Assembly (NCBI GenBank): GCA_021825445.1
Contig: JAKAHA010000004.1
Span: 1 to 64,000, forward strand
DNA length: 64,000 bases
From: a bacterium
GTDB taxonomy: Bacteria > Patescibacteriota > Microgenomatia > UBA1406 > GWC2-37-13
Direction: 5' to 3'
Within the stretch, counting starts at the first letter, position 1. Each line of letters begins with the position of its first letter. This document shows, piece by piece, positions 2 through 35,029 of this stretch. The notes below the pieces were generated by a model. The model had not been told where the DNA came from, did not search any database, and saw only the letters and a list, made by a program, of their open reading frames with translations. Made by a program: the position numbers and the translations under genes.

Positions 2-442
2 GGAACAAAATGGATAAGATCAGTCGCTGATAAAGAACCACAACGTATTTATAAAATTGGTCATGCAACATCAAACGATGGTATTAATTGGGAAAAAGAA
101 AACCGACAATTAATAGCGGACAAACTTAATCTGCAAGAATGTCAGGCACTTCCAACAGTTATTAAATTTGATAATAAATATCACATGTTGTTTTGTTACA
201 GACAAGCAATTGATTTTAGAAAAAATAAAAACAGAGGATATAAAATCGGCTACGCTTTTTCAAAAGATTTAATCAATTGGACTCGCGATGATAAAAATGT
301 CGGAATTGATTTTTCAGAAAACAATTGGGACTCGGAAATGCTCTGTTATCCGCACATGTTTCATTGTGATAATAAAATATATCTGTTATATAATGGGAAT
401 CAATTTGGACGATTTGGATTTGGACTGGCAGTATTAATATGA
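2..442 (+). CDS. Glycosidase-like five-bladed propeller protein, 5'-truncated by window edge
   Basis: The reading frame is open from base 2, so the gene begins outside the window; an internal ATG at 185 is not the real start. The visible 146 residues show repeated blade-like units of the type GHATSNDGINW, then GYAFSKDLINW, each followed by an acidic stretch, as in the GH43/GH32/GH130-like beta-propeller superfamily. Such proteins occur in surface polysaccharide loci. The stop overlaps the next ATG by 4 bases, so the two genes are co-translated. Substrate and activity cannot be read from this fragment; it may be a glycosylase or a non-catalytic sugar-binding propeller. Confidence 0.6.
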   Translation, partial: GTKWIRSVADKEPQRIYKIGHATSNDGINWEKENRQLIADKLNLQECQALPTVIKFDNKYHMLFCYRQAIDFRKNKNRGYKIGYAFSKDLINWTRDDKNVGIDFSENNWDSEMLCYPHMFHCDNKIYLLYNGNQFGRFGFGLAVLI

Positions 443-1089: not shown

Positions 1090-1095
1090 ATATTT

Positions 1096-1839: not shown

Positions 1840-1841
1840 TT

Positions 1842-8690: not shown

Positions 8691-9944
8691 TTATACCAAA
8701 TTAATGAATTTTGTTATTTTTTCTTTCACATACTCTAACATCTCTTCATTAATTCCAGGATAAACTCCTAACCAAAAAGCATTATTCATAATCAGGTCGG
8801 CGTTTTTCATATCCCCAATAATCTTAAAACTTTTCTTACGGTTGACGTAAGCAGGGTGACGAAGAATATTTCCTGAAAAAACATTTCTCGTTCCAATTTT
8901 ATTTTTTTCCAAATACTCGGTAAATTCATTCCTTGAAAAAGGGGAGTCGGGTTTGACGATTGCTGGAAATCCAAAATAACTTACTTCTTCTTTCTTATCA
9001 TTTTTCATTAAAATAAAATACTTTTTATATTGTGAAAAAAATTCATAAAGAGCCTTGTAATTTTCCTGTCTTTTTTTAATGAAAGTTGGCAGTTTTTTAA
9101 GTTGCGCAACGCCGATTGCCGCCTGGAAATCCGTCGCCTTTAAATTGTAACCAATTTGAGAATAAATATATTTATGATCGTATCCTTGAGGAAGATCGCC
9201 CAATTTCCATCCAAATCTTTTTCGGCAAGTATTATCACGCCCTGTATCGCACCAGCAATCACGACCCCAATCGCGAAATTGGCGGATCGATTTGTGAATC
9301 AAAGAATTATTAGTGACGACAGCTCCGCCCTCGCCCATAGTCATCTGATGTGCCGGATAAAAACTGAAGGTCGCAATATCTCCAAACGAACTAACAAGTT
9401 TTCCGTCATATTTTGAACCCAAGGCATCGCAGGAATCTTCAATCACCCAAAGATTATGTTTTTTTGCCAACTTCATAATTTTTTTCAGATTATAAGGTTT
9501 TCCCAAAGTATGAGCCATCATGATCAATTTAGTTTTTTTGGTAATCGCTTTTTCAATTTTGTCAACGTCGATGTTTAGAGTGTCAATCTCTGCATCAATA
9601 AAAATCGGCTTTAAGCCGTATTGAAGACCGGGGTTGACGGTCGTTGGGAAAGCAACTGAACAGGTTATAAATTCATCGCCTGGTTTAAGTTGGCGTTCTC
9701 CAAAGACTGAAGAAGTTAGAGCAGATAAAGCAACTAAATTGGCAGATGATCCAGAATTAACAAGCGAAACATAATTGACTCCAAGAAATTTTTTAAATTC
9801 TCTTTCAAATTCTTTAGTCCATCGTCCTTCAGTCCACCAACCCTCGCGTGCTGCCTCAATTGCATTATTTATCTCCCTCTCGTCATATACTTTACCTGAT
9901 ACTGGAACGTAAGTCTCTCCTCGAATAAATTTGTTCATTTTCAT
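8691..9944 (-). CDS. rfbH: CDP-4-keto-6-deoxy-D-glucose 3-dehydrase (E1)
   Basis: A 417-residue PMP-dependent, DegT-fold dehydratase. The usual PLP lysine is replaced by His199 in SFYPAHQMTMGEGG, and the [2Fe-2S] ligands follow the E1 pattern Cys-X57-Cys-X-Cys-X7-Cys at C172, C230, C232 and C240. These spacings match E1 of the ascarylose/abequose pathway. The enzyme removes the C3 hydroxyl of CDP-4-keto-6-deoxyglucose with a reductase partner (RfbI/E3), which I do not find in the window. Its partners RfbG and RfbF are encoded at 22060 and 23162. An in-frame Met at residue 3 (9938) is an alternative start. Confidence 0.95.
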   Translation of the reverse strand: MKMNKFIRGETYVPVSGKVYDEREINNAIEAAREGWWTEGRWTKEFEREFKKFLGVNYVSLVNSGSSANLVALSALTSSVFGERQLKPGDEFITCSVAFPTTVNPGLQYGLKPIFIDAEIDTLNIDVDKIEKAITKKTKLIMMAHTLGKPYNLKKIMKLAKKHNLWVIEDSCDALGSKYDGKLVSSFGDIATFSFYPAHQMTMGEGGAVVTNNSLIHKSIRQFRDWGRDCWCDTGRDNTCRKRFGWKLGDLPQGYDHKYIYSQIGYNLKATDFQAAIGVAQLKKLPTFIKKRQENYKALYEFFSQYKKYFILMKNDKKEEVSYFGFPAIVKPDSPFSRNEFTEYLEKNKIGTRNVFSGNILRHPAYVNRKKSFKIIGDMKNADLIMNNAFWLGVYPGINEEMLEYVKEKITKFINLV

Positions 9945-9971
9945 AATTTTATCAAAAAAAAAGCTTTATAG

Positions 9972-9977
9972 TATAAT
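9972..9977 (+). promoter_or_regulatory. -10 promoter element (TATAAT) for the 9986 gene
   Basis: TATAAT ends 8 bases before the ATG at 9986, with an AT-rich TTATCA-like -35 about 17 bases upstream. Transcription would start at or within a base or two of the start codon, so the mRNA is probably leaderless. It lies in the divergent gap with rfbH. Confidence 0.6.
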
Positions 9978-9985
9978 ATTACCTA

Positions 9986-10921
9986 ATGAAATCTAAAAAA
10001 CTTATCTCCATTGTCATTCCTATTTATAATGAGGAATTAGGAATTCCAGAACTGGTCAAGCAACTAACAAAATTTATTGGTGGAAACAAAAACTATGATT
10101 TCGAAATTATATTCGTCGAACATGGATCACATGACGATTCTTTCAATCTTTTGCAAGAATTTGCTAAAAAAAACAGTCAGATAAAAATTCTTCAACTTTC
10201 TAAAAATTTTGGTTGTGATGGCGGGATTGCTGCAGGTATGCAGTTTGCAAAAGGCGACGCTTTAGTAATTATGATGGCAGATCTTCAAGAGCCGATAGGA
10301 TTAATTTTGGAATTTATCAAAAAATGGGAAGCTGGTTACGAGATTGTTTATGGCGTAGTACAAAAAAGGGCAGCTGGATTTTTGAGAAATTTTAGCTCTG
10401 TTTTATTTTATAAAGTAATAAATTTATTTACCAAAAACATGTTCCCGGAAAATGCCAGTGACTTTCGACTGATAGATCGAAAAGTTTATCTAACAATAAA
10501 TCAAATGGGGGAACAAAACAAATATTTAAGAGGATTAATTATGTGGACTGGTTTTAAAAATATTGGAATTCCCTTTAATAGGTCAAAACGATTTGCAGGA
10601 GTTTCAAAAGCTAATTTTGTCACAGTACTCAAAGTCGCGCTTAACGGCATTTTTTCTTTTTCCTATTTACCTTTACGATTTGTCACAGGGCTGGGAATAA
10701 CGATTACAATTGTCTCTTTTATAATGATATTTTTTTATCTTTATCTATTTTTTATTCATGGTCGAGAAGCACCGGGAGCCGCAACAACAATTTTGTTGAT
10801 ATTGAGTTTGTTTGGAATTTTATTTTTTATCCTGGGAATCATTAGTGAATACCTGGCGAGGATCTACGATGAAGTCAAAGCCCGACCATCTTTTATTGTA
10901 AAAAATAAAATAAATTTGTAA
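9986..10921 (+). CDS. GT2 glycosyltransferase, DPM1/GtrB-like, membrane anchored
   Basis: A 311-residue GT-A enzyme with SIVIPIYNEE at the N-terminus, FVEHGSHDDS in place of the usual VDDGSxDGT, MMADLQEP as the metal-binding motif, and two C-terminal hydrophobic helices at about 230-300. It looks like a polyprenyl-phosphate hexose synthase. The change from DD to EH in the nucleotide-binding loop is unusual and may alter donor specificity. It is the first gene of the plus-strand set running to 22063, and a TATAAT box sits just before its start. Confidence 0.83.
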   Translation: MKSKKLISIVIPIYNEELGIPELVKQLTKFIGGNKNYDFEIIFVEHGSHDDSFNLLQEFAKKNSQIKILQLSKNFGCDGGIAAGMQFAKGDALVIMMADLQEPIGLILEFIKKWEAGYEIVYGVVQKRAAGFLRNFSSVLFYKVINLFTKNMFPENASDFRLIDRKVYLTINQMGEQNKYLRGLIMWTGFKNIGIPFNRSKRFAGVSKANFVTVLKVALNGIFSFSYLPLRFVTGLGITITIVSFIMIFFYLYLFFIHGREAPGAATTILLILSLFGILFFILGIISEYLARIYDEVKARPSFIVKNKINL

Positions 10922-10928
10922 TAGACAA

Positions 10929-11819
10929 ATGAAAAAAATTAAGGTCGGAATTATTGGTACTGGAAATATTGGCTCTGATCTATTAATTAAAATTATAAGA
11001 TCTCCATATTTGGAGTGTGGAATTTTTACTGGACAAAATCCTGACTCTGAGGGAATTTTGAGAGCCAAAAAACTTGGAGTCAAAACTTCTTTTGAGTCAA
11101 TCCGCGCGATTGAAAAAAATCCTAAATGCTGTGAAATAGTTTTTGATGCAACTTCAGCTAAAGGACATTTATATAATGCTCCCATCTTAAAAAAATTAAA
11201 AAAATTTGTCATTGATATGACCCCATCAAGAATTGGCAAGATGTGCGTCCCAAGTCTTAATTTGGAAAGTTCATTAAAAGAAAATAATATTAATATGGTT
11301 AGCTGTGGAGGACAGGCGACCACCCCGATTGCCAAAGCCATCATGAAAATTAATCCTAATACCCAATACATTGAAATTGTTTCCAGCATTTCTTCAAAAT
11401 CAGCTGGTATTGGTACACGAAATAATATCGATGAGTATACTCAAACCACTAGTGAAGCTCTAGTGTATTTTAGTGGTGTCAAAAAAGCTAAGGCAATTGT
11501 CAATCTTAATCCTGCCGACCCACCTATTTTAATGCATAATACAATTTATGCTCAAATTAAAAATCCAAAAATAGATTTGACTACTAAAGAAATAAAAAAA
11601 GTAGTAAAAAAAATTCAACAGTATGTTCCTGGTTATAAATTAGTTTTAGAACCTGTTTACGATAATGGTCGATTGACAACTATGATAGAAGTGATTGGAC
11701 GAGGCGATTTTTTGCCAATATATGCGGGCAATTTAGATATAATTAACTGTGCTGCAATTGCCGTAGCTGAAGAATATGCCAGGCGAAAATTAAAAATAAA
11801 AAAACATGAAATCAAATAA
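10929..11819 (+). CDS. mhpF: Acetaldehyde dehydrogenase (acylating), MhpF/DmpF family
   Basis: A 296-residue enzyme. The N-terminal Rossmann motif is IIGTGNIGSD, the catalytic thiolate is C126 in VSCGGQATTPI, and SSKSAGIGTR and NLNPADPP follow the family. It interconverts acetyl-CoA and acetaldehyde with NAD(H). The stop overlaps the aldolase gene by 14 bases, as in meta-cleavage operons where the two proteins form a channelling complex. Here the neighbours are sugar-nucleotide enzymes, so the pair probably feeds a biosynthetic route rather than aromatic degradation; that is inference. Confidence 0.9.
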   Translation: MKKIKVGIIGTGNIGSDLLIKIIRSPYLECGIFTGQNPDSEGILRAKKLGVKTSFESIRAIEKNPKCCEIVFDATSAKGHLYNAPILKKLKKFVIDMTPSRIGKMCVPSLNLESSLKENNINMVSCGGQATTPIAKAIMKINPNTQYIEIVSSISSKSAGIGTRNNIDEYTQTTSEALVYFSGVKKAKAIVNLNPADPPILMHNTIYAQIKNPKIDLTTKEIKKVVKKIQQYVPGYKLVLEPVYDNGRLTTMIEVIGRGDFLPIYAGNLDIINCAAIAVAEEYARRKLKIKKHEIK

Positions 11820-12864
11820 TAGGGAAGTACTTATCGTTGACTCAACTCTTCGTGATGGATCTCATGCTATGAAACATCAATTTACTGTTCAAGACATTGT
11901 TCAATATGCCAGAGGGGCAGAGCTCGCCGGAACGAAAATACTTATGGTCGGACATGGAAATGGATTGGGCGCTTCTTCACTCCAACTAGGACTATCTTTA
12001 GTATCTGATAAAGAAATGTTAGTTGCAGCAAAAAAACAACTAAAAAAAACTCAGCTTGGAGCCTTTCTGATTCCAGGATTTGGAACTATTAAAAATGATA
12101 TTGAGCCGGCGATCGTCGATTATGGGGTTGATGTTATCATGGTTGCTTGTCATTGTACCGAGGCAAATATAACTCGCCAACATATTCAATATGCCACAAA
12201 AAAAAATATTAAAACTTATGGTGTTTTGATGATGTCTCATATGATTTCGGCTGAAGAACTTCTGGTACAAGCAAAATTAATGGAAGAATATGGAGTGGCA
12301 GGAGTTTTGCTTATGGACTCAGCTGGAACTTACTTACCAAAAGATGTATCCGAAAAAGTATCAACCTTAGTTAAAGGTTTGAAAGTTGATGTGGGTTTTC
12401 ATGCTCACAATAATTTAGGTATGGCGGTTGCCAATTCTTTAATTGCTGTGGAATCTGGAGCTAATATTTTAGATGCTTGTTCTCGTGGGCTAGGGGCTGG
12501 AGCAGGTAACTGTCAACTGGAAGTAATCGCGGCAGTTCTCAATAAAGTTGGAATAAAAACCGGATTGGACCTTTACCAACTGATGAATAATAGTGAAAAT
12601 ATTATTGCAAAATTAATGAAAGCCCCGATTGAAATAAATGATATTACTTTAACAAGTGGTCTTGCCGGCGTTTTTTCCGGATTTGCTCCTCATGCAAAAA
12701 AAGCTGCTATTAAATTTGGTATCGACGTCCATGATTTATTAATTGAACTTGGAAAAAGAAAAATTATAGGTGGTCAAGAAGATATAATTATTGACGTGGC
12801 AAATTTCCTCAAACAAAAAAAAGAATTTAAAGATGAAGATTATCAGATAGAATCATTATTATAA
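11806..12864 (+). CDS. mhpE: 4-hydroxy-2-oxovalerate aldolase, MhpE/DmpG family
   Basis: A 352-residue TIM-barrel aldolase of the HMGL-like family. DSTLRDGSHAMKH near the N-terminus holds the metal-binding Asp and catalytic residues, and GFHAHNNLGMAVANS supplies the His metal ligands; the C-terminal communication domain is present. It joins or splits pyruvate and acetaldehyde via 4-hydroxy-2-oxopentanoate. It overlaps the acetaldehyde dehydrogenase gene by 14 bases and is followed after 15 bases by two ThDP enzymes that could use a 2-oxo acid as acyl donor. That coupling is a hypothesis. Confidence 0.9.
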   Translation: MKSNNREVLIVDSTLRDGSHAMKHQFTVQDIVQYARGAELAGTKILMVGHGNGLGASSLQLGLSLVSDKEMLVAAKKQLKKTQLGAFLIPGFGTIKNDIEPAIVDYGVDVIMVACHCTEANITRQHIQYATKKNIKTYGVLMMSHMISAEELLVQAKLMEEYGVAGVLLMDSAGTYLPKDVSEKVSTLVKGLKVDVGFHAHNNLGMAVANSLIAVESGANILDACSRGLGAGAGNCQLEVIAAVLNKVGIKTGLDLYQLMNNSENIIAKLMKAPIEINDITLTSGLAGVFSGFAPHAKKAAIKFGIDVHDLLIELGKRKIIGGQEDIIIDVANFLKQKKEFKDEDYQIESLL

Positions 12865-12879
12865 ATTTAAAATAATTAT

Positions 12880-14658
12880 ATGACCGTTAGCGATTATATT
12901 TTTAAATTTTTAACAGATAAGGGAGTTGATACGATATTCATGATTACAGGAGGACAAGCGATGTTTTTGAATGATGCGGTTTTTCGCAACAAAAAATTAA
13001 AATATATCTGTGGGCACCATGAACAAGCGCTTGGAATGTCAGCTGATGCTTATGGTCGAATTACTGGAAAACTAGGAGTTAGTTTGGTTACCGCCGGACC
13101 TGCTGCTATCAACATTATAAACGGAGTCGTTGGTGGATGGGTTGACTCATCTCCAATGATGGTCATTTCAGGTCAATCGGCTTTGTCTTTTGTTCAATAT
13201 CAGCAAAAAACCAAAATTAGACAGTTTGGAATTCAAGGCATAAATATTAAGCCAATTGTTGAAAAAATTACCAAATATTTTGTTACTGTGGACGATCCTT
13301 CTCTAATTCAGTACTATATGCAAAAAGCTTATTATCTGGCACTAAGCGGTCGACCCGGTCCAGTATGGATCGAAGTTCCTCTCGACATTCAGAGAATGGA
13401 AGTTCCTAAAAAGCTCCTAAAAGAATTTATCCCTGAGGAAAACAAAGATCTAGACAGTGATCTTTCTACAAAAGTAAAAGAAACGTTGGAATTATTATCA
13501 AAATCTAAACGACCAATTCTTTTTGCTGGTCAAGGAATTAGATTAGCAAATACTTTTAATGAATTTGATAAAATTGTCAAAAAACTTCAAATGCCAGTTA
13601 TCACCTCTCGACTAGGGATTGATCTCATTGATAGTGATAATAAGCTATATGTAGGACGACCTGGAACATATGGAGAAAGAGCTGCTCATTTTGCAATTCA
13701 AAATTCAGATTTAATTTTGGCTATAGGTTCCCGACTTTCAACATCAACGGTTGGTCATAACTCAAAGGAATTTGGTAAAAATGCCAAAAAAATCGTTGTT
13801 GATATTGATATCGAAGAACTCGAAAAACCAGGTATAGACATCTTCCTAAAAATTAATACCGATGTTAAATTATTTTTAAATGAACTATTAAAACAGATAG
13901 GTACGCATAAAATTCCAAATTATAAAAATTGGGTTGAAAGATGTAATTTTTGGAAGTATAAATATCCGGTGGTTTTACCAGAATATAAAAAAGAAAAACC
14001 AATTAACTCTTATTATTTTACTGAAAGATTATCATGCCTTGCCTCTGACCGTGATATGATCTTAGTTGATACAGGATCTTGTTTTCATGTTGCCTGTCAA
14101 GCATGGAAAATCAAAAAAAATCAGCGTTTTTTGACGACCGGTGGAATCTCTTCGATGGGCTATTGGGCGGCAGGAATTGGTGCATGTCTAGCAAATAATC
14201 GAAAAAATACGATTGTAATAACGGGGGACGGAAGTCTTCAATTTAATATCCAAGAATTTGCAACGATCAAACATAATAATCTGCCCATAAAAGTTTTCAT
14301 TTTAAATAATAACGGATACTTATTAATCAGACACACCCAAAAGAATTTTATGGACGGAAGGCTTATGGGGGAGAGTGAGAAAAATGGTGTTTGGTGTCCT
14401 GATTCTTTAAAGATCGCTACAGCCTATGGAATTAAGGGGGTAAGAATTAGTTCTATCGACGAAATTGATAAAAAAATTAAAGAAGTCCTTGATTATAAGG
14501 GACCTGTAATTTGTGATGTGATGACTCCTGAGTGGCAACTGTTGATTCCAAGGACGGCATCAGAAAAAAGACCTGATGGAACACTGGTTGCCAAACCATA
14601 CGAGGACATGTTTCCTTTTTTGGATAGAAAAGAATTTAAGCAAGCCAACCACCCATAA
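12880..14658 (+). CDS. ThDP-dependent acetolactate-synthase-like enzyme, candidate sugar acyl-branching enzyme
   Basis: A 592-residue three-domain ThDP enzyme. The activating Glu is E48 in GHHEQALGMSADAYGR. The cofactor motif is G449-D450-G451 with N476-N477 (GDGX24NN), followed by NGYLLIRHTQ. Acetolactate synthase of branched amino-acid synthesis would normally have a small regulatory subunit nearby; none is seen. In CDP-3,6-dideoxyhexose loci the related YerE transfers an acetyl unit from pyruvate to C4 of the keto sugar. Next to RfbH and a 2-oxo-acid aldolase, such a role is plausible but unproven. Confidence 0.85.
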   Translation: MTVSDYIFKFLTDKGVDTIFMITGGQAMFLNDAVFRNKKLKYICGHHEQALGMSADAYGRITGKLGVSLVTAGPAAINIINGVVGGWVDSSPMMVISGQSALSFVQYQQKTKIRQFGIQGINIKPIVEKITKYFVTVDDPSLIQYYMQKAYYLALSGRPGPVWIEVPLDIQRMEVPKKLLKEFIPEENKDLDSDLSTKVKETLELLSKSKRPILFAGQGIRLANTFNEFDKIVKKLQMPVITSRLGIDLIDSDNKLYVGRPGTYGERAAHFAIQNSDLILAIGSRLSTSTVGHNSKEFGKNAKKIVVDIDIEELEKPGIDIFLKINTDVKLFLNELLKQIGTHKIPNYKNWVERCNFWKYKYPVVLPEYKKEKPINSYYFTERLSCLASDRDMILVDTGSCFHVACQAWKIKKNQRFLTTGGISSMGYWAAGIGACLANNRKNTIVITGDGSLQFNIQEFATIKHNNLPIKVFILNNNGYLLIRHTQKNFMDGRLMGESEKNGVWCPDSLKIATAYGIKGVRISSIDEIDKKIKEVLDYKGPVICDVMTPEWQLLIPRTASEKRPDGTLVAKPYEDMFPFLDRKEFKQANHP

Positions 14659-14676
14659 TATGATAAAATACCATGT

Positions 14677-16503
14677 ATGAAAGATACTAAAATAAAGCTT
14701 TCTGATTATGTAATTCAATTTATAGAAAATCTTGGAGTAAAGCATATTTTTTTAATTTCTGGTGGCGGAAATATTCACCTTGTTGACTCCCTTGGAAAAA
14801 GCAAAAAAATAAAATATGTTTGCAATCATCACGAACAAGCTTCTTCAACCGCAGCTGAAGCGTATGCCAGAATTGCGGGCTTTGGGGTTTGCTTGGTGAC
14901 AACAGGACCTGGTGGAACAAATGCCATTACCGGCGTCCTTGGAGCCTACCAAGATTCAATACCTATGCTTGTCATATCAGGACAAGTAAAAAGAGAAACT
15001 ATGGGAGCGGGAAAAATCACCAGACAGTACGGAGACCAAGAAGTAAATATTATAGATATCGTCAAACCGTTAACCAAATATGCCGCAACTATTATGAATC
15101 CACTTGATGTCGATTACGAGCTATCAAAGGCTACTCATATTGCCAAATCCGGCAGACCGGGTCCAGTTTGGATCGATATCCCGCTTGATATTCAAGGATC
15201 AACGATTGAAATCGAAAAGTTAAAAAAATTTGAATCAAAAGAAATTAAACCCGATTTTAATACTGACAAGAAAAAATTAAGTGAATTGGTTAGTAAAACA
15301 ATTGAAAAAATTAAAAATTCTAAACGCCCGGTTTTATACGCAGGAAACGGAATTAGACTTGCCGGTGCTTATAAAGAGTTTTTAAAATTAGTTGACCTTC
15401 TGAAAATTCCTGTTTTGACAAGTTATGCAGGTTACGACCTGATGCCGTCCGCTCATCCATATTTTTTTGGTCGGGGACATGCTTTTGGTCAACGAGCTGG
15501 TAATTTTGTTTTACAAAACAGTGATTTATTACTTTCAATTGGAGCCAGATTTGATATTAGGACGATTGGATTTACTTATAAAGCATTTGCCAGAGCCGCC
15601 TACAAGATAATGGTTGATATTGATATGAAAGAGATAAAAAAACCAATTCTTTCAATTAACATGCCTGTTAATTTTGACGCTAAAGATTTTATCGAAGAAA
15701 TGATAAGACAACTAAAAGAAAATTCGTTGAAATTACAAATAAATGATTGGCTGGATTACGGAAGAAAATTAAATAAAAAATACCCGGTAGTTTTAAAAGA
15801 ATATTGGCAGGAAAAAAAATTTGTTAACAACTACTGTTTTATTGAGGCTATTGGAAAACAACTTAAGCCAAATGAATTAATTGTTGAGTCAAATGGAGTC
15901 GGACCCCTAAACTGCATGTACCAGGCATTTTATGTAAAACCGGGTCAAAGAATTATTCTCAATAACGGTTGTGCCCAGATGGGGTATGGACTACCTGCTG
16001 CCGTTGGAGTCGCCTTTGCCGCCGATAAAAAACAAAGAGTCATCTGTTTTGATGGTGATGGAAGTATTCAACTAAATATCCACGAACTCCAAGTGATGAA
16101 ACATCATAATCTTCCAATCAAATTATTTATTTATACAAACGACGGTTATCTTTCAATTAAAAATACCCAAAATAATTTATTTGCAGGAGTTCATGTGGCA
16201 GTTGACAATGAGTCTGGAATCAGTTGTCCGGATATTGTGAAAATCGGAAAAGCTTATGGAATTAAAACTATAAAAATCAACAACCACGCAGATATGGATG
16301 AAAAAATAAAAAAAGTATTATCTACCCCCGGTCCCGTAATCTGTGATATTAATGCTGTCAGAAATTTGGCACTTGCACCAAAACTGATGGCAAAAAAATT
16401 ACCTAACGGTCAGTTCGCTTCGCCTCCCCTTGAAGACATGGGACCATTTTTGCCAAGAGATGAATTTGAAAAGAACATGTTAATTCCGTTGTGGAAAGAA
16501 TAA
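14677..16503 (+). CDS. Second ThDP-dependent acetolactate-synthase-like enzyme
   Basis: A 608-residue paralogue of the preceding protein. The activating Glu is E53 in NHHEQASSTAAEAYAR and the cofactor motif is G460-D461-G462 with T487-N488-D489, so the first Asn of the usual NN pair is Thr while the metal-ligand Asn is kept. The loop after it reads GYLSIKNTQ, like the first copy. Two diverged copies in tandem (18-base gap) suggest two different acyl donors or acceptors. Catabolic acetolactate synthase is unlikely in this sugar-nucleotide context. Confidence 0.85.
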   Translation: MKDTKIKLSDYVIQFIENLGVKHIFLISGGGNIHLVDSLGKSKKIKYVCNHHEQASSTAAEAYARIAGFGVCLVTTGPGGTNAITGVLGAYQDSIPMLVISGQVKRETMGAGKITRQYGDQEVNIIDIVKPLTKYAATIMNPLDVDYELSKATHIAKSGRPGPVWIDIPLDIQGSTIEIEKLKKFESKEIKPDFNTDKKKLSELVSKTIEKIKNSKRPVLYAGNGIRLAGAYKEFLKLVDLLKIPVLTSYAGYDLMPSAHPYFFGRGHAFGQRAGNFVLQNSDLLLSIGARFDIRTIGFTYKAFARAAYKIMVDIDMKEIKKPILSINMPVNFDAKDFIEEMIRQLKENSLKLQINDWLDYGRKLNKKYPVVLKEYWQEKKFVNNYCFIEAIGKQLKPNELIVESNGVGPLNCMYQAFYVKPGQRIILNNGCAQMGYGLPAAVGVAFAADKKQRVICFDGDGSIQLNIHELQVMKHHNLPIKLFIYTNDGYLSIKNTQNNLFAGVHVAVDNESGISCPDIVKIGKAYGIKTIKINNHADMDEKIKKVLSTPGPVICDINAVRNLALAPKLMAKKLPNGQFASPPLEDMGPFLPRDEFEKNMLIPLWKE

Positions 16504-16519
16504 ATTTATAAAATAATTT

Positions 16520-17506
16520 ATGGTCAAATTAGCAGAGGGAGTACAAGGTTTTGATACTACGAAGTCTGCTGAATCTTATGCAAGATTAAATTCAATAGGT
16601 TACGATACTTCTGTAAAAGCCATTGTTGACAAAATGACACTTTTTCTCAAAAATATAAAGGGTCATGCTTGGATTGTAGAGATTGGTGCAGGTCAAAGAA
16701 AAGCTACTATAGGAATTGACGCCTCACTTAAAAAACATGGTTTTTCAAACGTAACAATTATTCCATTGGAACCGTCTTCGGAACAAACAAAAATGGCACC
16801 TAAAGTTGATTCGGGAGATCAGTCAACCCCTCCTTTAATTCGAAATGGTGAAATTCTTCCGATTAAAACTAATTCTGCCAAAGGCTTTTTATCTTCTCAG
16901 GTACTTCATTGGGTTACTACAAGCAAAAAATTACTGGAATTGTTTAAGGAAGGATCACGAATATTAGTAAAAGATGGTTTTTTAGTTCACGCAGTTTCCG
17001 GCTTAGTTGACTTGAAAGAATATAATAAATATCATTTTACCCGTGCACCTTTTTATCTTGAAGCCTATCTTCCAGAAGTTAAAAAATTATTAATTGAACA
17101 TGGGTTCTGGAGTGAAGATCAAGGTGAATTTGTACCATGGAACCACAAAGTTAATCCTTTTTATCACAAATATACTCTTCATGACATTCGTAAAATAATC
17201 AAAAAAGCTGGTTTCAAAGACGTAAAAATTGATATATACTTTGCCCGTCTTGGTCCAGAAGAATGGAAAAAAAGATGTGCTGAATTATCAATGTTAAAAA
17301 TGCATCTTTTTAAAAGCAAAAGATTAAAAGAAATACCTGAGAATTTAATGGAAGAAATTGGCAAACAGGCTTTTGAGCAAGCTAAATTGAGTCGCTCTGA
17401 TTTATGGAATGAATTATCACAAGAAACTAGTGAGGTTATGAATCAAATGCCAGAAAATTTAACACATGGAGAACCTGTGCCAGTTATTACTGCTAGAAAA
17501 AAATGA
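16520..17506 (+). CDS. Divergent class I SAM-dependent methyltransferase
   Basis: A 328-residue protein with a recognisable SAM-binding motif WIVEIGAGQRKATIGID at about 51-67 and a SSQVLHWV post-motif segment; the long C-terminal half is alpha-helical and unfamiliar. It lies between the ThDP genes and an epimerase on the same strand; the stop overlaps the next start by 4 bases. C- or O-methylation of a sugar nucleotide intermediate would fit, but no substrate motif is visible. Confidence 0.65.
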   Translation: MVKLAEGVQGFDTTKSAESYARLNSIGYDTSVKAIVDKMTLFLKNIKGHAWIVEIGAGQRKATIGIDASLKKHGFSNVTIIPLEPSSEQTKMAPKVDSGDQSTPPLIRNGEILPIKTNSAKGFLSSQVLHWVTTSKKLLELFKEGSRILVKDGFLVHAVSGLVDLKEYNKYHFTRAPFYLEAYLPEVKKLLIEHGFWSEDQGEFVPWNHKVNPFYHKYTLHDIRKIIKKAGFKDVKIDIYFARLGPEEWKKRCAELSMLKMHLFKSKRLKEIPENLMEEIGKQAFEQAKLSRSDLWNELSQETSEVMNQMPENLTHGEPVPVITARKK

Positions 17507-18435
17507 ATAAAAAAACAATTTTTATCACCGGGGCGGGGGGGTTTATTGGAAAGAATTTGACGGAACAATTAAACGGAAAATATAATCTGTTGACACCCGG
17601 ACATAAGGAACTTGATTTGTTGGACGAAAAAGCTGTTGATAATTTTTTCAAGAAAAATAAGATTGACGTTGTCATTAACTGTGCCGTCATTGGCGGAAGC
17701 AGAAAAGAAGAACACGTCGACTCCTCACTTTCCGGAAATTTAAGAATATTTTTCAATCTTTTGAAAAATAAAGGTCGATATAAAAAGATGATTCATCTTG
17801 GGTCAGGTGCAGAATACGACAAAACCAAACCGATTATCAAAGTAAAAGAAACTGATTTGGGAAAAACCATTCCCAAAGACGAATATGGTTTTTTCAAATA
17901 TATTTGCTCAAAATATATTGAAAAAGAAAAAGATATTGTTTGTATTAGAATTTTTGGTCTATTTGGAAAATACGAAGATTACAGATATCGCTTTATCTCC
18001 AATGCGATCGTTAATAACTTAAAAGGGCTTCCTATCACTATGAATCAAAACGTCTTTTTTGATTATACGGATATTAACGATTTTGTTAGGATTGTTGATC
18101 ACTTCATCAATCATAAAGCAAAACATAAGTTTTATAATATCGGTACCGGGAAAAAAATTGATATATTGACGATTGCCAATAAGATAAATAAGATCGCTGA
18201 CAAAAAATCGAAAATAACGATAAAAAATAAAGGACTGAATAACGAATATACTTGTAACAGTTCGAGATTGAAAACTGAGCTAAAAAAATTTGAGTTCACC
18301 GACTTTGATAAATCTTTGAATGAACTATATAGGTGGTATAGAGATAAGTCTGTGTCATTCCCGCCCCCGATCGGAGTCGAGGGCAGGCTCCTGCGGGAAT
18401 CCAGAAATCATGGATCCCCTTTTTCAAGGGGATGA
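17503..18435 (+). CDS. NAD-dependent sugar epimerase/dehydratase with repeat-derived C-terminus
   Basis: A 310-residue extended SDR. TGAGGFIGKNL binds the dinucleotide, SGAEYDK replaces the usual Ser/Thr segment and YGFFK gives the YxxxK dyad. It could be a C4 reductase or epimerase acting on the CDP-sugar, similar in type to abequose or GDP-fucose synthases. The natural end appears to be near LNELYRWYRD; the last 28 or so residues are encoded by two palindromic repeats (18351-18403, 18411-18439), the second of which supplies the TGA stop. Confidence 0.78.
   Translation: MNKKTIFITGAGGFIGKNLTEQLNGKYNLLTPGHKELDLLDEKAVDNFFKKNKIDVVINCAVIGGSRKEEHVDSSLSGNLRIFFNLLKNKGRYKKMIHLGSGAEYDKTKPIIKVKETDLGKTIPKDEYGFFKYICSKYIEKEKDIVCIRIFGLFGKYEDYRYRFISNAIVNNLKGLPITMNQNVFFDYTDINDFVRIVDHFINHKAKHKFYNIGTGKKIDILTIANKINKIADKKSKITIKNKGLNNEYTCNSSRLKTELKKFEFTDFDKSLNELYRWYRDKSVSFPPPIGVEGRLLRESRNHGSPFSRG
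18351..18403 (+). repeat. 53-nt palindromic repeat, exact inverted copy of 24588-24640
   Basis: The element begins TGTGTCATTCCCGCCCC and ends CTGCGGGAATCCA. Base for base it is the reverse complement of 24588-24640. It sits at the 3' end of the 17503 gene and is translated in frame. Confidence 0.92.
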
Positions 18436-18439
18436 CAAA
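18411..18439 (+). repeat. 29-nt palindromic repeat, variant of the 7061 element
   Basis: It begins TGGATCCCC and ends GGGGATGACAAA, 7 bases after the 53-nt repeat. Its TGA serves as stop codon of the 17503 gene. Confidence 0.88.
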
Positions 18440-18467
18440 CATTAATTTGATAAAATAAGAATAAAGT

Positions 18468-19136
18468 ATGAGCAAGAAAACTGTTTTTATTACCGGAGCC
18501 GGGCGGGGAATTGGCGAGGCGATTTACAAAAAATTAAAAACAGAAAAATACAAAATAATCGCTCCCTCTCGAGATGAACTTGATCTCAATGATAATGTTT
18601 CAATATATCGATATATTGAAACACACAAAAATTTAAAAATAGATATTCTTATAAATAACGCCGGGGTAAATTTTCCCAGTTGGATTGATGAATTGACTGA
18701 TGACAATATTGATAAACATATGCAAATAAATCTTATAAGTCCCATCAAACTGATTCGAGCTTTTGTTCCATATATGAAAAAAAATCAGTGGGGGAAAATC
18801 ATAAATATTTCTTCAATTTTTGGAGTTGTTGCCCGAGGAAAGCAGACAATGTATTCGGCCACAAAACACGCCATAAACGGAGTAACAAAAGCCTTGGCAC
18901 TTGAACTTGGACCAAGCAATATTTTAGTCAACTCAGTTTGCCCAGGCTTTACCAATACCGATTTGGTAAAACGTAACCCTCCGGAAAAAAATGCACTGAT
19001 CGCCAAAGATATTCCCATGGGTAGATTTGCGCAGCCCGAGGAGATCGCAGAACTGGTCTCATTCTTAATTTCCGATAAAAATACTTATATCAACGGTCAA
19101 TGTTTAGTGATTGACGGTGGATTTACCTGCAGATAA
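18468..19136 (+). CDS. Short-chain dehydrogenase/reductase (FabG-like)
   Basis: A 222-residue classical SDR with TGAGRGIGEA, NNAG at about 64-67, and a Ser-Tyr-Lys triad in INISS and YSATK; the C-terminus has NSVCPGFTNT and INGQCLVIDGG. It is an NAD(P)-dependent oxidoreductase. In this operon it probably reduces a keto group on a sugar or on an acyl branch introduced by the ThDP enzymes, which would parallel the reduction step that completes yersiniose. The substrate is inferred. One base separates its stop from the next ATG. Confidence 0.85.
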   Translation: MSKKTVFITGAGRGIGEAIYKKLKTEKYKIIAPSRDELDLNDNVSIYRYIETHKNLKIDILINNAGVNFPSWIDELTDDNIDKHMQINLISPIKLIRAFVPYMKKNQWGKIINISSIFGVVARGKQTMYSATKHAINGVTKALALELGPSNILVNSVCPGFTNTDLVKRNPPEKNALIAKDIPMGRFAQPEEIAELVSFLISDKNTYINGQCLVIDGGFTCR

Positions 19137-19137
19137 T

Positions 19138-20220
19138 ATGGACAAACTAATTATCAAATCCCGTATTAGAGATTTTGACGTTGAGTTTGTTGATGATTTT
19201 TCTTTTGTAGATAAACTCCTTGATTTAAAAAACTATGTTGTCATCGTCGGGCAAACTGTTTACAAACATTATAAAAACACAATTTTTTCCCGTTTCCCCA
19301 AGGAGCAACTAATTATCATCAAACTTGATGAAAAAAGAAAAACTCTTGATACGGTCATGAAAATTTACAAAAAACTTCTTCCCCTTTCCTCAAAAAAAAA
19401 TCTTACTTTAATTTCTTTTGGAGGTGGGATCAATCAGGATGTGACCGGTTTTGTTGCCTCAACTCTTTATCGAGGTATCAATTGGGTATATATCCCAACA
19501 ACGCTCCTAGCTATGGCAGATAGTGCGATTGGTTTAAAAACTTCTCTGAATCACGAATCTTATAAAAACGTTTTGGGAACTTTTTATCCTCCTTCAAAAA
19601 TTTATATTTGTACTGATTTTTTAAAGACATTAAAAAAAACAGATTATCTAAGTGGAGTCGGAGAGATAATAAAATTTATGCTGATGAAAAAAAATCCTGT
19701 TAAAAATCTTGACGGATCAATAAATAAAATTGAAGAACTCAAACTAAACAATAATAAAAAATTTATCATAAACGTAATTAAGGAAAGTATTGAAATTAAA
19801 AAATCTTACATGGAGGGTGATGAATTTGATTTGGGAAAACGTAATCTTTTAAATTACGGACATGAACTTGGACACGCACTGGAGGCAACCTCAAATTTTG
19901 CCGTCCCTCATGGCATCGGCGTGATCATCGGAATCATTTTTGCTAATCTTGTCTCAGTGCATCGGGGTTGGATTGATGAAAAATTAAATAAAAAAATAAA
20001 TAGATTACTACTTCTACCAAATATAAAAACTATAAAACTAAAAAAAGAATATTTTAATTATGAAATAATTTTGGAAAAAATAAAAAAAGACAAAAAAAGA
20101 ATTTCTGATAAGTTACCACTCGTATTGCCAAAAAATAATTTTGAACTTGTAAAAATAATTGATTTGGATTTTGATGAATTTGGTACCACACTTCATAAAC
20201 TAATTAAGATTATCGTATAA
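19138..20220 (+). CDS. 3-dehydroquinate-synthase-like sugar phosphate cyclase
   Basis: About 360 residues from the ATG at 19138; an in-frame TTG at 19111 lies inside the previous gene and is less likely. Dehydroquinate synthase landmarks are kept: SFGGGINQDVTGFVAS, PTTLLAMADSAIGLK, a KNVLGTFYPP loop, DFLKTL, GVGEIIK and NYGHELGHALE, the last with metal-binding His. No other shikimate gene is nearby, and the next gene is an HpcH/HpaI aldolase. It may be a cyclase making a cyclitol or carbasugar-like unit rather than AroB, though AroB cannot be excluded. Confidence 0.78.
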   Translation: MDKLIIKSRIRDFDVEFVDDFSFVDKLLDLKNYVVIVGQTVYKHYKNTIFSRFPKEQLIIIKLDEKRKTLDTVMKIYKKLLPLSSKKNLTLISFGGGINQDVTGFVASTLYRGINWVYIPTTLLAMADSAIGLKTSLNHESYKNVLGTFYPPSKIYICTDFLKTLKKTDYLSGVGEIIKFMLMKKNPVKNLDGSINKIEELKLNNNKKFIINVIKESIEIKKSYMEGDEFDLGKRNLLNYGHELGHALEATSNFAVPHGIGVIIGIIFANLVSVHRGWIDEKLNKKINRLLLLPNIKTIKLKKEYFNYEIILEKIKKDKKRISDKLPLVLPKNNFELVKIIDLDFDEFGTTLHKLIKIIV

Positions 20221-20228
20221 TTGTTTCT

Positions 20229-20257
20229 TGTGTCATCCCCGTGAAAACGGGAATCCA
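20229..20257 (+). repeat. 29-nt palindromic repeat between genes
   Basis: TGTGTCATCCCCGTG, then AAAACGGGAATCCA. It is a member of the 7061/33430 family with two changed bases, in the 93-base gap between the cyclase-like gene and the aldolase gene. Confidence 0.85.
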
Positions 20258-20313
20258 TGCAGCGATAGCCTTTCCTATTGACATATTCAAAACAATATGT
20301 AAAAATATTGCCA

Positions 20314-21111
20314 ATGAATACGCTCGAATACAAAATGGTAGAACTTCTTCTCGACATGAAAAAAAACTACGGAGTCATCGATTTAAAAGCAGAATTTGAA
20401 GCCGAAGGATCACGAATTAATGAGTTAATGAGGCTTAAAGAAATTGCAAGCAATGCAGGACTCTCGATTGCTATGAAAATCGGAGGAGCTGAGGCAATTA
20501 CCGATATTTTTGAATCACAAAAAATCGGAGTCAGTGCCCTCGTTGCTCCAATGCTCGAAAGTCCATACGCACTTTCCAAATATCTGCTCGCACTTGAAAA
20601 ATATTTACCAAAAGATGCAAGAAAAAATATTAAATTTGTTGCCATGATTGAAACTATACAGGGATATAAAAATGTCGACGAAATGTTGGCTATCGATAAA
20701 AATAATTTTTTAAATATAATCAGTGTTGGAAGGGTTGATTTATCAGGGTCATTGGGTTTGCAACGTAATGAAGTAAATAATGACAAGATGTATCAGATAG
20801 TAGAAGATATTTTTACAAAAACTAAAAAAAGAAAATTAGAAACCGTCATGGGCGGAGGAATTGCAAAAGAGGCAATACCTTTTATCAAAAAACTTGTATC
20901 AAAAAAACTTCTTGATCGATACGAAACAAGAAAAATAATTTTTCATACCGACCCTCAGGCAACCGCCACTAAAATGGAAGAGGGGATAATCAAAGCAAAT
21001 TTATTTGAGCTGTTCTGGCTACAAAACAAAAAGAAATATTACACAAATATTGCCATGGAAGATGATTCCAGAATGGAAATGTTAATGTCCCGCATTTATA
21101 AAATAGATTAA
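20314..21111 (+). CDS. HpcH/HpaI aldolase/citrate lyase family protein
   Basis: About 265 residues from the ATG at 20314; a TTG at 20278 is an upstream alternative. GVIDLKAEFEAEGSR, AMKIGGAEAITDI, VAPMLESPYAL, VAMIETIQGY and SVGRVDLSGS follow the class II aldolase/CitE barrel, with the usual Arg, Glu and Asp metal-site residues. The family joins pyruvate, acetyl-CoA or PEP-type donors to aldehydes. Placed directly after a dehydroquinate-synthase-like gene and before a GT2 gene, it probably builds a surface sugar precursor; the substrate is unknown. Confidence 0.8.
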   Translation: MNTLEYKMVELLLDMKKNYGVIDLKAEFEAEGSRINELMRLKEIASNAGLSIAMKIGGAEAITDIFESQKIGVSALVAPMLESPYALSKYLLALEKYLPKDARKNIKFVAMIETIQGYKNVDEMLAIDKNNFLNIISVGRVDLSGSLGLQRNEVNNDKMYQIVEDIFTKTKKRKLETVMGGGIAKEAIPFIKKLVSKKLLDRYETRKIIFHTDPQATATKMEEGIIKANLFELFWLQNKKKYYTNIAMEDDSRMEMLMSRIYKID

Positions 21112-21112
21112 A

Positions 21113-22063
21113 ATGGCTACAAAAAAGAAAGTCCTCTCGATTGTTATTCCTACATATAATGAAGAAGAAAATATCCAATACGCATATAAAGAAACGGTCA
21201 AGGTAATGAAAACTATGCCTAAATATAATTATGAAATTATTTTTGTTGATAATTACAGCACTGACAATTCTCGAAAGATTATTAGGTCCATTACAAAAAA
21301 AGATAAAAAAACCACAGCGATATTTTTATCTAGAAATTTTACTTCGGAATATTCTTCACATGCTGCCATGAGACAAGCAACTGGTGATATTTTGACGATC
21401 CTTGACTGCGATCTTCAAGATCACCCGGAAGTTTTACCAAAATTTCTTAAAAAATTGGATGAAGGCTATCCGGTCGTCATTGGAGTCAGAAATGTCATCA
21501 ACGACACTTTCATAATGAAATATGTAAGAAAATTTTTTTATGTCATCTTTAAAAAAATGGCAAATATTGAGATGCCACTTAACGCTGGAACATTCTGTGT
21601 GCTTGATAGAAAAGTGCTTGATGTAATTATAGAATTACCTGAACGAAATCGTTTTTTCAGGGGTCTTAGAGCATGGGCAGGATTTAAAACGGCTTACGTT
21701 GAATATGAAAGAAGAGAAAGAAAATTTGGAAAGACAAAAAATTCACTACTGGATTATATTCGCGATGCCCAAAGAGGTTTGCTTGGATTTTCATTTATAC
21801 CATTGGATCTGATGTCGACTCTTGGATTCTTAATTACTTTTTTTTCTTTTGTTCTGGCAATTGGCTATCTTTCTTGGGTAATATTTTTTGGAAATCCGAT
21901 CAATGCCTCAATTCCAATCATGCTTTCGATATTTGTTTTCGGTGGGATACAAATGCTTGGAATCAGTATCGTCGGGAAATATATTCAAATTGTTTTTGAA
22001 GAGGTTAAACGCAGACCTTCGTACGTGATTGAGGAAATATTAAATAATCACAAAAAAAATTAA
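21113..22063 (+). CDS. GT2 glycosyltransferase, DPM1/GtrB-like, membrane anchored
   Basis: A 316-residue GT-A protein: SIVIPTYNEEENI, FVDNYSTDNS as the nucleotide loop (Asn in place of the second Asp), LDCDLQDHPE as the metal motif and two C-terminal membrane helices. It has the architecture of polyprenyl-phosphate sugar synthases. It starts one base after the aldolase stop and its end overlaps the convergent rfbG end by 4 bases. Together with the 9986 protein it brackets the branched-sugar gene set. Confidence 0.85.
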   Translation: MATKKKVLSIVIPTYNEEENIQYAYKETVKVMKTMPKYNYEIIFVDNYSTDNSRKIIRSITKKDKKTTAIFLSRNFTSEYSSHAAMRQATGDILTILDCDLQDHPEVLPKFLKKLDEGYPVVIGVRNVINDTFIMKYVRKFFYVIFKKMANIEMPLNAGTFCVLDRKVLDVIIELPERNRFFRGLRAWAGFKTAYVEYERRERKFGKTKNSLLDYIRDAQRGLLGFSFIPLDLMSTLGFLITFFSFVLAIGYLSWVIFFGNPINASIPIMLSIFVFGGIQMLGISIVGKYIQIVFEEVKRRPSYVIEEILNNHKKN

Positions 22064-23007
22064 TTTCTATACCACTTCAATATTTTCTCCGCTGTTGATT
22101 TAACGTTTTCCTTTGGTTTCCAGCCAAGCAACTTTTTTATTTTTGTATAATCGAGCGACTGATAGGGAATTTCGTTTTTAGCGTTATTTAAAATTTTAAA
22201 TTTTATTTTTTTACCTAAAACTTTTTCTACTTGTTTAATTACATCGATAACTGTTAGTGTGTCGTCAGAACCAAAATTAAAAGCCTCACCTTTTACTTTT
22301 TCTATATTTTGTGCAAGTAATAAATAGCCTGCAACAACATCTTTGACGTATAAATAATCGCGAACATACTTACCATTACTCCTAATTTTTAATTCTGAAT
22401 TTTTAATTATTGAATTCATAATCCCGGGAATAATTCTTGAAAAATTTAGATCACCTTCACCATAAATATTTCCAAAACGAGTAATGACTACCGGAATTTT
22501 ATAAGTTTTATAGTAAGTTGAACTTAATAAGTCGGTGACGGATTTTGAAGTGTCGTACGGATGATCTCCTGATAGAGGATCGGTTTCAATATATTTCTGT
22601 TTCTTTAATTTTCCGTAACTTTTGTCAGAAGAAGCGACAATCACTCCCTTTATCCTGGAATTTGTTCTTACTGCCTCGAGTATATTGATCGTACTGACAA
22701 TATTATTTTCAAGAGTGTACTTTGGGTCTTTATAGGCATCCTCAACCAGTGCTTGGGCAGCCAGATGAAAGATTAACTCAATTTTATATTTTTTAATCAG
22801 GTTTAAGAGTTTTTTGTAATCACAGATATCCTGTTTTATCAAAACACATTTTTTATCTTTATTACGCTTTAGATATGACTTTTTATTAAATAAAATATCA
22901 ACAACGACAACATTGGCTTTCTGATTAATCAATTCTTCAACCAGGTGTCCGCCAACAAAACCAGCTCCACCTGTGACTAAGACATTCTTATTTTCTAAAC
23001 TGAACAT
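22060..23007 (-). CDS. rfbG: CDP-glucose 4,6-dehydratase
   Basis: A 315-residue extended SDR. VTGGAGFVGGHL binds NAD, HLAAQALVEDAYKDP and VASSDKSYG match the CDP-glucose dehydratase subfamily, and the active-site dyad is PYDTSK (YxxxK). It converts CDP-glucose to CDP-4-keto-6-deoxyglucose, the RfbH substrate. It is transcribed with rfbF upstream, with a 154-base spacer rich in hairpins. The assignment rests on the HLAAQALV and SDK motifs plus the neighbouring cytidylyltransferase. Confidence 0.88.
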   Translation of the reverse strand: MFSLENKNVLVTGGAGFVGGHLVEELINQKANVVVVDILFNKKSYLKRNKDKKCVLIKQDICDYKKLLNLIKKYKIELIFHLAAQALVEDAYKDPKYTLENNIVSTINILEAVRTNSRIKGVIVASSDKSYGKLKKQKYIETDPLSGDHPYDTSKSVTDLLSSTYYKTYKIPVVITRFGNIYGEGDLNFSRIIPGIMNSIIKNSELKIRSNGKYVRDYLYVKDVVAGYLLLAQNIEKVKGEAFNFGSDDTLTVIDVIKQVEKVLGKKIKFKILNNAKNEIPYQSLDYTKIKKLLGWKPKENVKSTAEKILKWYRN

Positions 23008-23024
23008 AATAAAAAGTAATTATA

Positions 23025-23128
23025 GACTGGTTCCGACTTAGTCGGGAGACAGTCAATAATAAACTGATGTAAAAGTGGGACGCTTAATTTTTTTCGACTT
23101 GGGAGTCCCCGAAAAGGGGAAGGTTCCC
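23025..23128. repeat. Two hairpins between rfbF and rfbG
   Basis: First hairpin 23025-23054: inner CCGAC-TTA-GTCGG with outer GACTG/CAGTC arms. Second hairpin 23101-23128: CCCC-GAAA-AGGGG core with GGGA/TCCC flanks. No T-run follows, so these look like repeat-family palindromes or processing sites in the rfbF-rfbG transcript rather than terminators. Confidence 0.7.
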
Positions 23129-23161
23129 ACGGAGAAATAAAATTTAGTGTCACACTTTTAA

Positions 23162-23941
23162 TTAACGCCAAACTTTCCAAGGTGCATTTCCTTTTTTCCA
23201 CATCTTATTTAAATCTTCAACTTCTTTATAAGTATCCATACAAAACCAAAAACCGTCATGTTTTTTTGCTGATAATTCTCTTTCGCTACTTAGTTTTTTT
23301 AAAGCTGGATGTTCGGTTTCTCCTGGTTTTAGATAATTAAAAACTCGCCTATCAAAAACCATATATCCACCGTTTACCCAATCATTTAAAATCGGCTTTT
23401 CAACAAATTTATTAACTAAATTTTTTTTGTCAATATTTACTAATCCATATTTTGATCTCGGATGGACTAATGTTATCGTCCCGATGGTTTTTTGTTTTTT
23501 GTGAAATTTGACTAGAGCATCAATATCTAAGTCTGTAACACCATCTCCATAGGTAACCATAAAATATTTATCTTTTTCTGGAATATATTTTTTACATCTT
23601 AGAATTCTTTCTCCAGGCAATGTATCAACACCAGTGTTGACAAACGTTATTTTAAAATTATCAATTTCTTGACGGTCATCAAGATAAAACTTTGTCTTGT
23701 GATGGCGAGTTTCCAATGAAAAATCTGAGGTAAAAGCTTTTTGATTAAGAAAAAAATCTTTTATGTAGTCGGCTTTATAACCGAGCGCAAGGATAAATTC
23801 GTTATAACCGTAGGAGGCATAAATCTTCATTATGTGCCACAAGACTGGTTGACTACCGACGTAAACCATTGGTTTTGGTTTATATTCCGTTTCCTCTTTA
23901 AGCCTCGTGCCCGTCCCACCACAGAGAATGATTACCTTCAT
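23162..23941 (-). CDS. rfbF: Glucose-1-phosphate cytidylyltransferase
   Basis: A 259-residue nucleotidyltransferase: the N-terminal LCGGTGTRLKEETEYKPKPM signature loop, FMVTYGDGVTDLDI with catalytic Asp, GYMVFDRRVF and a C-terminal FWFCMDTYKEVEDLNKMW. These are hallmarks of RfbF rather than RmlA. It makes CDP-glucose from CTP and glucose 1-phosphate, the entry step of the CDP-3,6-dideoxyhexose pathway. It is divergent from the DUF2142 gene at 23976. Confidence 0.92.
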   Translation of the reverse strand: MKVIILCGGTGTRLKEETEYKPKPMVYVGSQPVLWHIMKIYASYGYNEFILALGYKADYIKDFFLNQKAFTSDFSLETRHHKTKFYLDDRQEIDNFKITFVNTGVDTLPGERILRCKKYIPEKDKYFMVTYGDGVTDLDIDALVKFHKKQKTIGTITLVHPRSKYGLVNIDKKNLVNKFVEKPILNDWVNGGYMVFDRRVFNYLKPGETEHPALKKLSSERELSAKKHDGFWFCMDTYKEVEDLNKMWKKGNAPWKVWR

Positions 23942-35012: not shown

Positions 35013-35029
35013 AATATATTTTAACAAAA

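Follow-up and report, generated by a model that had tools for sequence, protein, structure and literature searches.

Two putative aldolase-carboligase modules for C4-branched CDP-3,6-dideoxyhexoses in one patescibacterial operon

A 64,000-nucleotide stretch of contig JAKAHA010000004.1 (hereafter the window), from a bacterium of the Patescibacteriota (GTDB lineage GWC2-37-13; assembly GCA_021825445.1), contains at positions 8691-23941 a sugar-biosynthesis cluster with two adjacent genes for thiamine diphosphate (ThDP)-dependent enzymes and two aldolase genes. The window is part of a 97.5 kb contig, in a genome of 1.02 Mb. We propose, with a probability of roughly 60%, that the operon makes two different cytidine diphosphate (CDP)-linked 3,6-dideoxyhexoses, each branched at C4, via two independent aldolase-ThDP modules that share an acceptor. 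A first-pass annotation, made from the sequence alone, had named RfbF, RfbG, RfbH, MhpF, MhpE, two ThDP proteins, short-chain dehydrogenases/reductases (SDRs) and a methyltransferase; all lie within this interval and were called correctly, as judged by profile search, but an AroB-like gene, an HpcH/HpaI-like gene and two family 2 glycosyltransferase (GT2) genes had been overlooked.

In yersiniose, erwiniose and caryophyllose, YerE-like enzymes attach acyl units of varied length to CDP-4-keto-3,6-dideoxyglucose (PMC12247030). YerE uses donors with at most a C3 chain, mainly pyruvate, and JanthE takes longer aliphatic 2-oxo acids and ketones; ErwE, from the erwiniose pathway of Pectobacterium atrosepticum, prefers 4-hydroxy-2-oxo-butanoate, -pentanoate and -hexanoate, uses CDP-4-keto-3,6-dideoxyglucose as acceptor and rejects pyruvate and acetaldehyde, and MMAR_2332 (caryophyllose, Mycobacterium marinum) resembles it in preferring hydroxylated 2-oxo acids (PMC12247030). 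Most enzymes of the YerE-like group still lack an assigned branched sugar and with it a natural donor (PMC12247030).

On sequence grounds, ThDP1 (12880-14658, + strand) and ThDP2 (14677-16503, + strand) belong to the YerE/JanthE family. JanthE (PDB 8RPH) is the closest solved relative and best PDB match of both (412 and 456 bits); acetolactate synthase (ALS) structures score far lower, at ~244 and ~261 bits. The catalytic Glu is present in ThDP1, as is the canonical GDG motif, in place of which JanthE has CDG; pocket residues also differ from those of JanthE. A maximum-likelihood tree of ThDP proteins (74 rows, with JanthE, whose position is unsettled, as the sole characterised YerE-like reference) places true ALS in a separate clade (support 100/99, branch length 0.82), with ThDP1 and ThDP2 outside it and in two different YerE-like clades. 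Clustering with IlvB, which the first-pass annotation had raised as a check on its proposal, was therefore not seen. An identity as IlvB, the biosynthetic ALS, was rejected for both proteins, which lie outside the ALS clade, fall more than 150 bits short of the profile cut-off (370 and 386 bits against 538) and carry Thr at the Trp/Gln position of ALS. A separate IlvB-type gene is found elsewhere in the genome (L001).

Directly upstream of ThDP1 are genes for an MhpF-like acylating acetaldehyde dehydrogenase, of the type that converts acetyl-CoA to acetaldehyde (10929-11819, + strand; TIGR03215, 379.6 bits, cut-off 282), with the catalytic-Cys motif CGGQA, and an MhpE-like 4-hydroxy-2-oxovalerate aldolase (11806-12864, + strand; TIGR03217, 395 bits, cut-off 286), with TLRDG and HAHNN motifs. 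Like DmpF/DmpG and MhpF/MhpE, with whose E. coli representatives they share ~43-44% identity, these proteins exceed both family cut-offs, and the DmpG communication domain (PF07836) is retained; unlike them, they sit with sugar genes rather than genes of aromatic catabolism. An order-level search for MhpF (83 genomes) and a class-level one (233 genomes) recovered 10 distinct MhpF-bearing genomes, in all of which MhpF adjoins a YerE-like ThDP gene, mostly together with RfbF, RfbG and RfbH, so that the linkage on which the first-pass annotation had staked its proposal holds in the relatives. One of these ThDP proteins is a divergent ThDP-methyltransferase fusion (G101) and another is split over two frames (G098). 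ThDP1 scores among relatives form two groups, above 360 bits and at or below ~260 bits.

When homologues of the window genes were placed around 57 long YerE-like genes, every ThDP1 homologue of at least 53% identity had MhpF and MhpE directly upstream. Ten of the MhpEF-linked ThDP genes form a single clade (91/90); with the divergent G101 fusion included, the MhpEF-linked proteins are not strictly one clade. In identity matrices, the divergence of MhpF and MhpE follows that of ThDP1 (Spearman 0.77 and 0.75; Mantel P = 0.0004 and 0.0002). The triad also occurs with RfbF, RfbG and RfbH in Goldiibacteriota and Elusimicrobiaceae (Elusimicrobiota), and without them nearby in one Clostridia genome (L065, L066, L068), but these three were found via ThDP1 and are not independent evidence of linkage. 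Module 1 is present without module 2, and with its own RfbF, RfbG and RfbH, in G133, L065 and L066. Judged by gene order and phylogeny, MhpF-MhpE-ThDP1 is a conserved unit. The earlier suggestion that MhpF and MhpE supply 4-hydroxy-2-oxopentanoate as a ThDP donor thus gains support from linkage, phylogeny and the ErwE precedent, although the novelty claimed for this donor was overstated, as the preference of ErwE for 4-hydroxy-2-oxo acids is already published (PMC12247030).

Two loci show variants of the triad. L062:192-6430 (G101:C126) encodes MhpF, MhpE, an HpcH/HpaI aldolase, an SDR and the ThDP protein fused to an S-adenosylmethionine (SAM) methyltransferase (853 aa), a fusion of two gene types that in the window lie near each other but unfused. 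L094:4149-10580 (G158:C9) encodes an in-frame-split MhpF, MhpE, a ThDP1-type protein, another HpcH/HpaI aldolase and a second YerE-like ThDP protein, an order of aldolase then ThDP, twice over.

The second module pairs ThDP2, whose clade holds the HpcH-linked enzymes, with a divergent HpcH/HpaI-fold aldolase (20314-21111, + strand; PF03328, E = 1e-8). Its AlphaFold2 model (predicted local distance difference test score 89.8) matches HpcH/HpaI and pyruvate-kinase folds at Z ~18, and the metal-site Glu and Asp are invariant in the alignment; aldolase activity is therefore likely. HpcH lies near a ThDP2-type gene in five of the six HpcH-bearing genomes of the class, and the sixth has a contig edge at the expected ThDP2 position; in Bacteroidales it comes right after the ThDP gene, a few bases apart. 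Module 2 is found without module 1, again with its own RfbF, RfbG and RfbH, at L072, L073 and L110, and in a Clostridia genome (G110) the two lie at separate sites.

Just upstream of HpcH in the window lies a gene for an AroB-like sugar-phosphate phospholyase (19138-20220, + strand; TIGR04425, 384.5 bits, just below the cut-off of 400). Both genes began at TTG in the raw list of open reading frames and were reset to the ATGs at 19138 and 20314, close to where homologues start. The positions that we take to be catalytic, zinc-binding and carboxylate-binding are invariant relative to the genome's own canonical AroB, which is encoded elsewhere, adjoining a gene like that for 3-deoxy-D-arabino-heptulosonate 7-phosphate synthase; given this separate AroB, the copy in the cluster is a dedicated paralogue. 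A classical SDR reductase (18468-19136, + strand; PF13561, 5e-48), whose orthologues in G209, G237 and G295 immediately precede the AroB-like gene, is the probable reductase of a donor or product ketone. An epimerase-type SDR (17503-18435, + strand; PF01370, 1e-26) has a homologue at most 12 kb from 40 of the 57 YerE-like genes and is the obvious candidate for reduction of the acyl-branch ketone, its probable role; such a reduction has been proposed for yersiniose in a study that did not characterise the enzyme (PMC4753412). The order reductase-SDR-AroB-like-HpcH is shared by the window, G209, G237 and G295, the contig of the last starting inside the reductase with the ThDP region out of view.

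HpcH and the AroB-like gene occur together in four cassettes, all in Patescibacteria, and HpcH accompanies a ThDP2 homologue without an AroB-like gene in G216, G060 and G049. In the Bacteroidales-type loci L072, L075, L076 and L077 no AroB-like gene was found, and a haloacid dehalogenase (HAD)-type phosphatase lies beside HpcH or between HpcH and the ThDP gene (L072:12699-13340, L075:12587-13378, L076:12697-13344, L077:11802-12584). Of these, L075, with its HpcH-ThDP module, belongs to Sanguibacteroides sp. GM7. That two different phosphate-removing enzymes adjoin the same aldolase suggests that its aldol product is phosphorylated.

Other neighbours were seen around YerE-like genes. At L089:3061-5504 (G214:C18), a gene of the transaldolase/fructose-6-phosphate-aldolase family and an archaeal-type phosphoenolpyruvate (PEP) carboxylase gene lie by a ThDP2-type gene without HpcH, maybe representing another donor route. 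Genes of 2-hydroxyacid dehydrogenase families (PF02826, PF02615) at L040:12074-13024 and L041:12170-13210 could perhaps yield a 2-oxo acid by oxidation, and a NeuB-family synthase (L037:2507-3577; G049:C44) is encoded near a third YerE-like gene of the same cluster.

The two ThDP types also differ at pocket positions 121 and 293, which are among the sites chosen in a docking study of JanthE (PMC12188165) and are given in the JanthE numbering of that study, which agrees letter for letter with the PDB sequence (8RPH). Ten of 11 MhpEF-linked enzymes combine I, L or V at 121 with S, G, A or P at 293, and 11 of 12 HpcH-linked enzymes combine D121 with R293. This fits a small, methyl-ended donor for ThDP1 and a polar donor for ThDP2.

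From GT2a (start 9986) to GT2b (end 22063) all genes are on the + strand and mostly overlap or are spaced by fewer than 35 bases, and so probably form one operon. This run lies between three minus-strand genes, RfbH before GT2a and RfbG and RfbF after GT2b, the context expected of a CDP-3,6-dideoxyhexose cluster. RfbH, a CDP-4-keto-6-deoxyglucose 3-dehydrase (E1) of the type that removes the C3 hydroxyl (8691-9944; NF011936, 1.8e-191, 636.6 bits against a cut-off of 423), has the iron-sulphur cysteines C172-X57-C230-X1-C232-X7-C240, and His199, in FYPAHQMTMGEGG, replaces the lysine that binds pyridoxal phosphate, as the first-pass annotation had read; we take this spacing and the Lys-to-His change to be the standard set by the Yersinia E1. 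RfbG, a CDP-glucose 4,6-dehydratase-like protein (22060-23007), and RfbF, a glucose-1-phosphate cytidylyltransferase (23162-23941), find their best matches below cut-off (TIGR02622, 208 bits against 278; TIGR02623, 263 bits against 300, with the next family at 84 bits), and the CDP specificity of RfbG thus leans partly on adjacency. Outside the cluster, at G000:C29:4613-4894 (L119), is the sole FAD_binding_6 reductase domain recognised in this genome, which makes its protein a candidate for the electron donor (E3) of RfbH.

Both glycosyltransferases are of the polyprenyl-phosphate type. GT2a (9986-10921, + strand; PgfS/ArnC-like, NF047588, 8.5e-68, below cut-off) has homologues directly 5' of MhpF in G049 and G106 and is not exclusive to MhpEF clusters, occurring outside them as well; GT2b (21113-22063, + strand; PF00535) adjoins HpcH in G209, G216, G060 and G295. 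As the number of GT2 genes correlates only moderately with that of ThDP genes (Spearman 0.44), the GT2 count is a weak argument for two sugars. The remaining gene encodes a SAM methyltransferase (16520-17506, + strand; weak match to PF08241, 9e-5).

In the pathway that we propose, RfbF, RfbG and RfbH would convert glucose-1-phosphate to the acceptor, CDP-4-keto-3,6-dideoxyglucose. MhpF would reduce acetyl-CoA to acetaldehyde, which MhpE would couple with pyruvate to give 4-hydroxy-2-oxopentanoate; ThDP1 would decarboxylate this acid and place the 3-hydroxybutanoyl unit on the C4 ketone, and an SDR would reduce the branch ketone to a 1,3-dihydroxybutyl branch, as in erwiniose. In module 2, the HpcH-like aldolase would couple pyruvate (or PEP) with a longer aldehyde, probably a phosphorylated one, the AroB-like enzyme would eliminate phosphate and an SDR would reduce the product to a longer polyhydroxylated 2-oxo acid, the acyl part of which ThDP2 would move to C4. 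GT2a and GT2b would load the finished sugars on polyprenyl phosphate. The branch of caryophyllose is 1,3,4,5-tetrahydroxyhexyl (PMC5706390), and a caryophyllose-like hexyl branch would arise if the ThDP2 donor were 3,7-dideoxy-hept-2-ulosonate; because this acid is the 7-deoxy relative of the dehydroquinate synthase substrate, an AroB-like enzyme beside a pyruvate-type aldolase is suggestive. That the AroB-like enzyme, the HpcH-fold aldolase and an SDR make such a terminally deoxygenated long 2-ulosonate, whose acyl part a YerE-like enzyme grafts onto a CDP-deoxysugar, is nevertheless a tentative idea, and we consider it improbable as it stands. If true, dehydroquinate-synthase chemistry would have been put to a new use, caryophyllose-like sugars would gain an enzymatic route, and one operon would house that route next to a separate, MhpEF-fed one of the erwiniose type.

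Several points weigh against the two-module reading. Which genes are present, the families to which they belong, how they pair, their phylogeny and the active-site differences were all observed directly, but every substrate, reaction direction and product is deduced from the genes. The pocket differences track clades, so ancestry could explain them. The HpcH-like protein is a remote relative of known enzymes: a single-sequence PDB search gave no match, pyruvate kinase and the citrate synthase SbnG stand with pyruvate aldolases among its closest folds, and a clear counterpart of the pyruvate-binding Arg70 of HpaI was not located, although a conserved Lys67 may replace it. Some members of the ThDP2 clade (G025, G214) have no visible HpcH, the SDRs assigned as reductases are exclusive to neither module, and RfbG fits the CDP-glucose model only slightly better than the dTDP-glucose model (208 against 195 bits). 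Finally, because the residues for ring closure persist in the AroB-like protein, it may yield a carbocycle, which would be unusable as a ThDP donor.

This last point leads to the alternative that survives best, in which ThDP2 carries out a yersiniose-type or other acyl transfer of its own while HpcH and the AroB-like enzyme build a separate carbocyclic or ulosonate sugar for the same glycan. The retention of all residues at the catalytic positions of dehydroquinate synthase argues for it, as does the name of TIGR04425, a cyclizing phospholyase; however, HpcH lies beside ThDP2-type genes without an AroB-like gene in Bacteroidales and other loci, and the HpcH-linked ThDP pockets carry D121 and R293. 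We regard this alternative as unlikely.

Somewhat less probable still is the pathway first suggested, in which ThDP1 uses 4-hydroxy-2-oxopentanoate and ThDP2 pyruvate on the way to a single long branched sugar. The two genes adjoin within one operon and YerE itself takes pyruvate (PMC12247030), but ThDP2-type genes go with a different aldolase, the HpcH-like one, which leaves a pyruvate-using second enzyme unsupported; nor does the action of both enzymes on one sugar find support, as other genomes carry just one of the two types, either of them, beside a complete rfb set, and the operon has two polyprenyl-phosphate-type GT2 genes. That MhpF and MhpE are catabolic, or that MhpF merely gives acetaldehyde to a ThDP enzyme, the genes being neighbours through transfer history only, is very improbable: aromatic degradation, as by the mhp operon of E. 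coli, is the best-known setting of these families, but mhpA-D-type genes were not recognised in the cluster, the triad is retained in four phyla with correlated divergence, and ErwE does not use acetaldehyde (PMC12247030).

Under the two-module reading, ThDP1 resembles ErwE in its proposed 4-hydroxy-2-oxo donor and module 2 resembles MMAR_2332 in its long branch, likenesses drawn from described chemistry; the window differs from the erwiniose system in having a second module. YerE of yersiniose A shares family and acceptor chemistry, as judged from a review and gene context rather than sequence, but with pyruvate as donor it needs no dedicated aldolase. The chemistry thus has precedents, and the two-module gene logic seems little described: literature searches, whose partial coverage of YerE-like enzymes limits any claim of novelty, found no description of the combined gene set, nor of HpcH with dehydroquinate synthase in O-antigen loci, and the M. 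marinum literature searched did not give functions for the caryophyllose genes.

Further sugar genes surround the cluster. An NDP-hexose 2,3-dehydratase family protein is encoded beside it (25365-26576, minus strand; PF03559, 1e-82), and GDP-mannose 4,6-dehydratase (30218-31201) and GalE (33993-35027) point to other sugar pathways. A formyltransferase, a methyltransferase, a GT2 and a DegT aminotransferase nearest DesI (439-3883, + strand) look like an N-formylated aminosugar module. A phage-type integrase gene (38456-39394, minus strand) adjoining polysaccharide genes is a possible sign of mobility. Against plasmid sequences, ThDP1 had a single match at E up to 1e-80, annotated as acetolactate synthase; among the matches listed from phage records, identity was at most 31%, and the annotated ones include acetolactate synthases.

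Neighbouring genes appear to predict the donor of a YerE-like enzyme, with MhpF and MhpE indicating 4-hydroxy-2-oxopentanoate and an HpcH-like aldolase a longer 2-oxo acid. Long-branched sugars could then be read from genomes by such a code, which would also supply synthesis with ready-matched pairs of aldolase and carboligase. A further suggestion is that ultra-small Patescibacteria, of which the present bacterium is probably a host-dependent member, devote genes to elaborate surface sugars.

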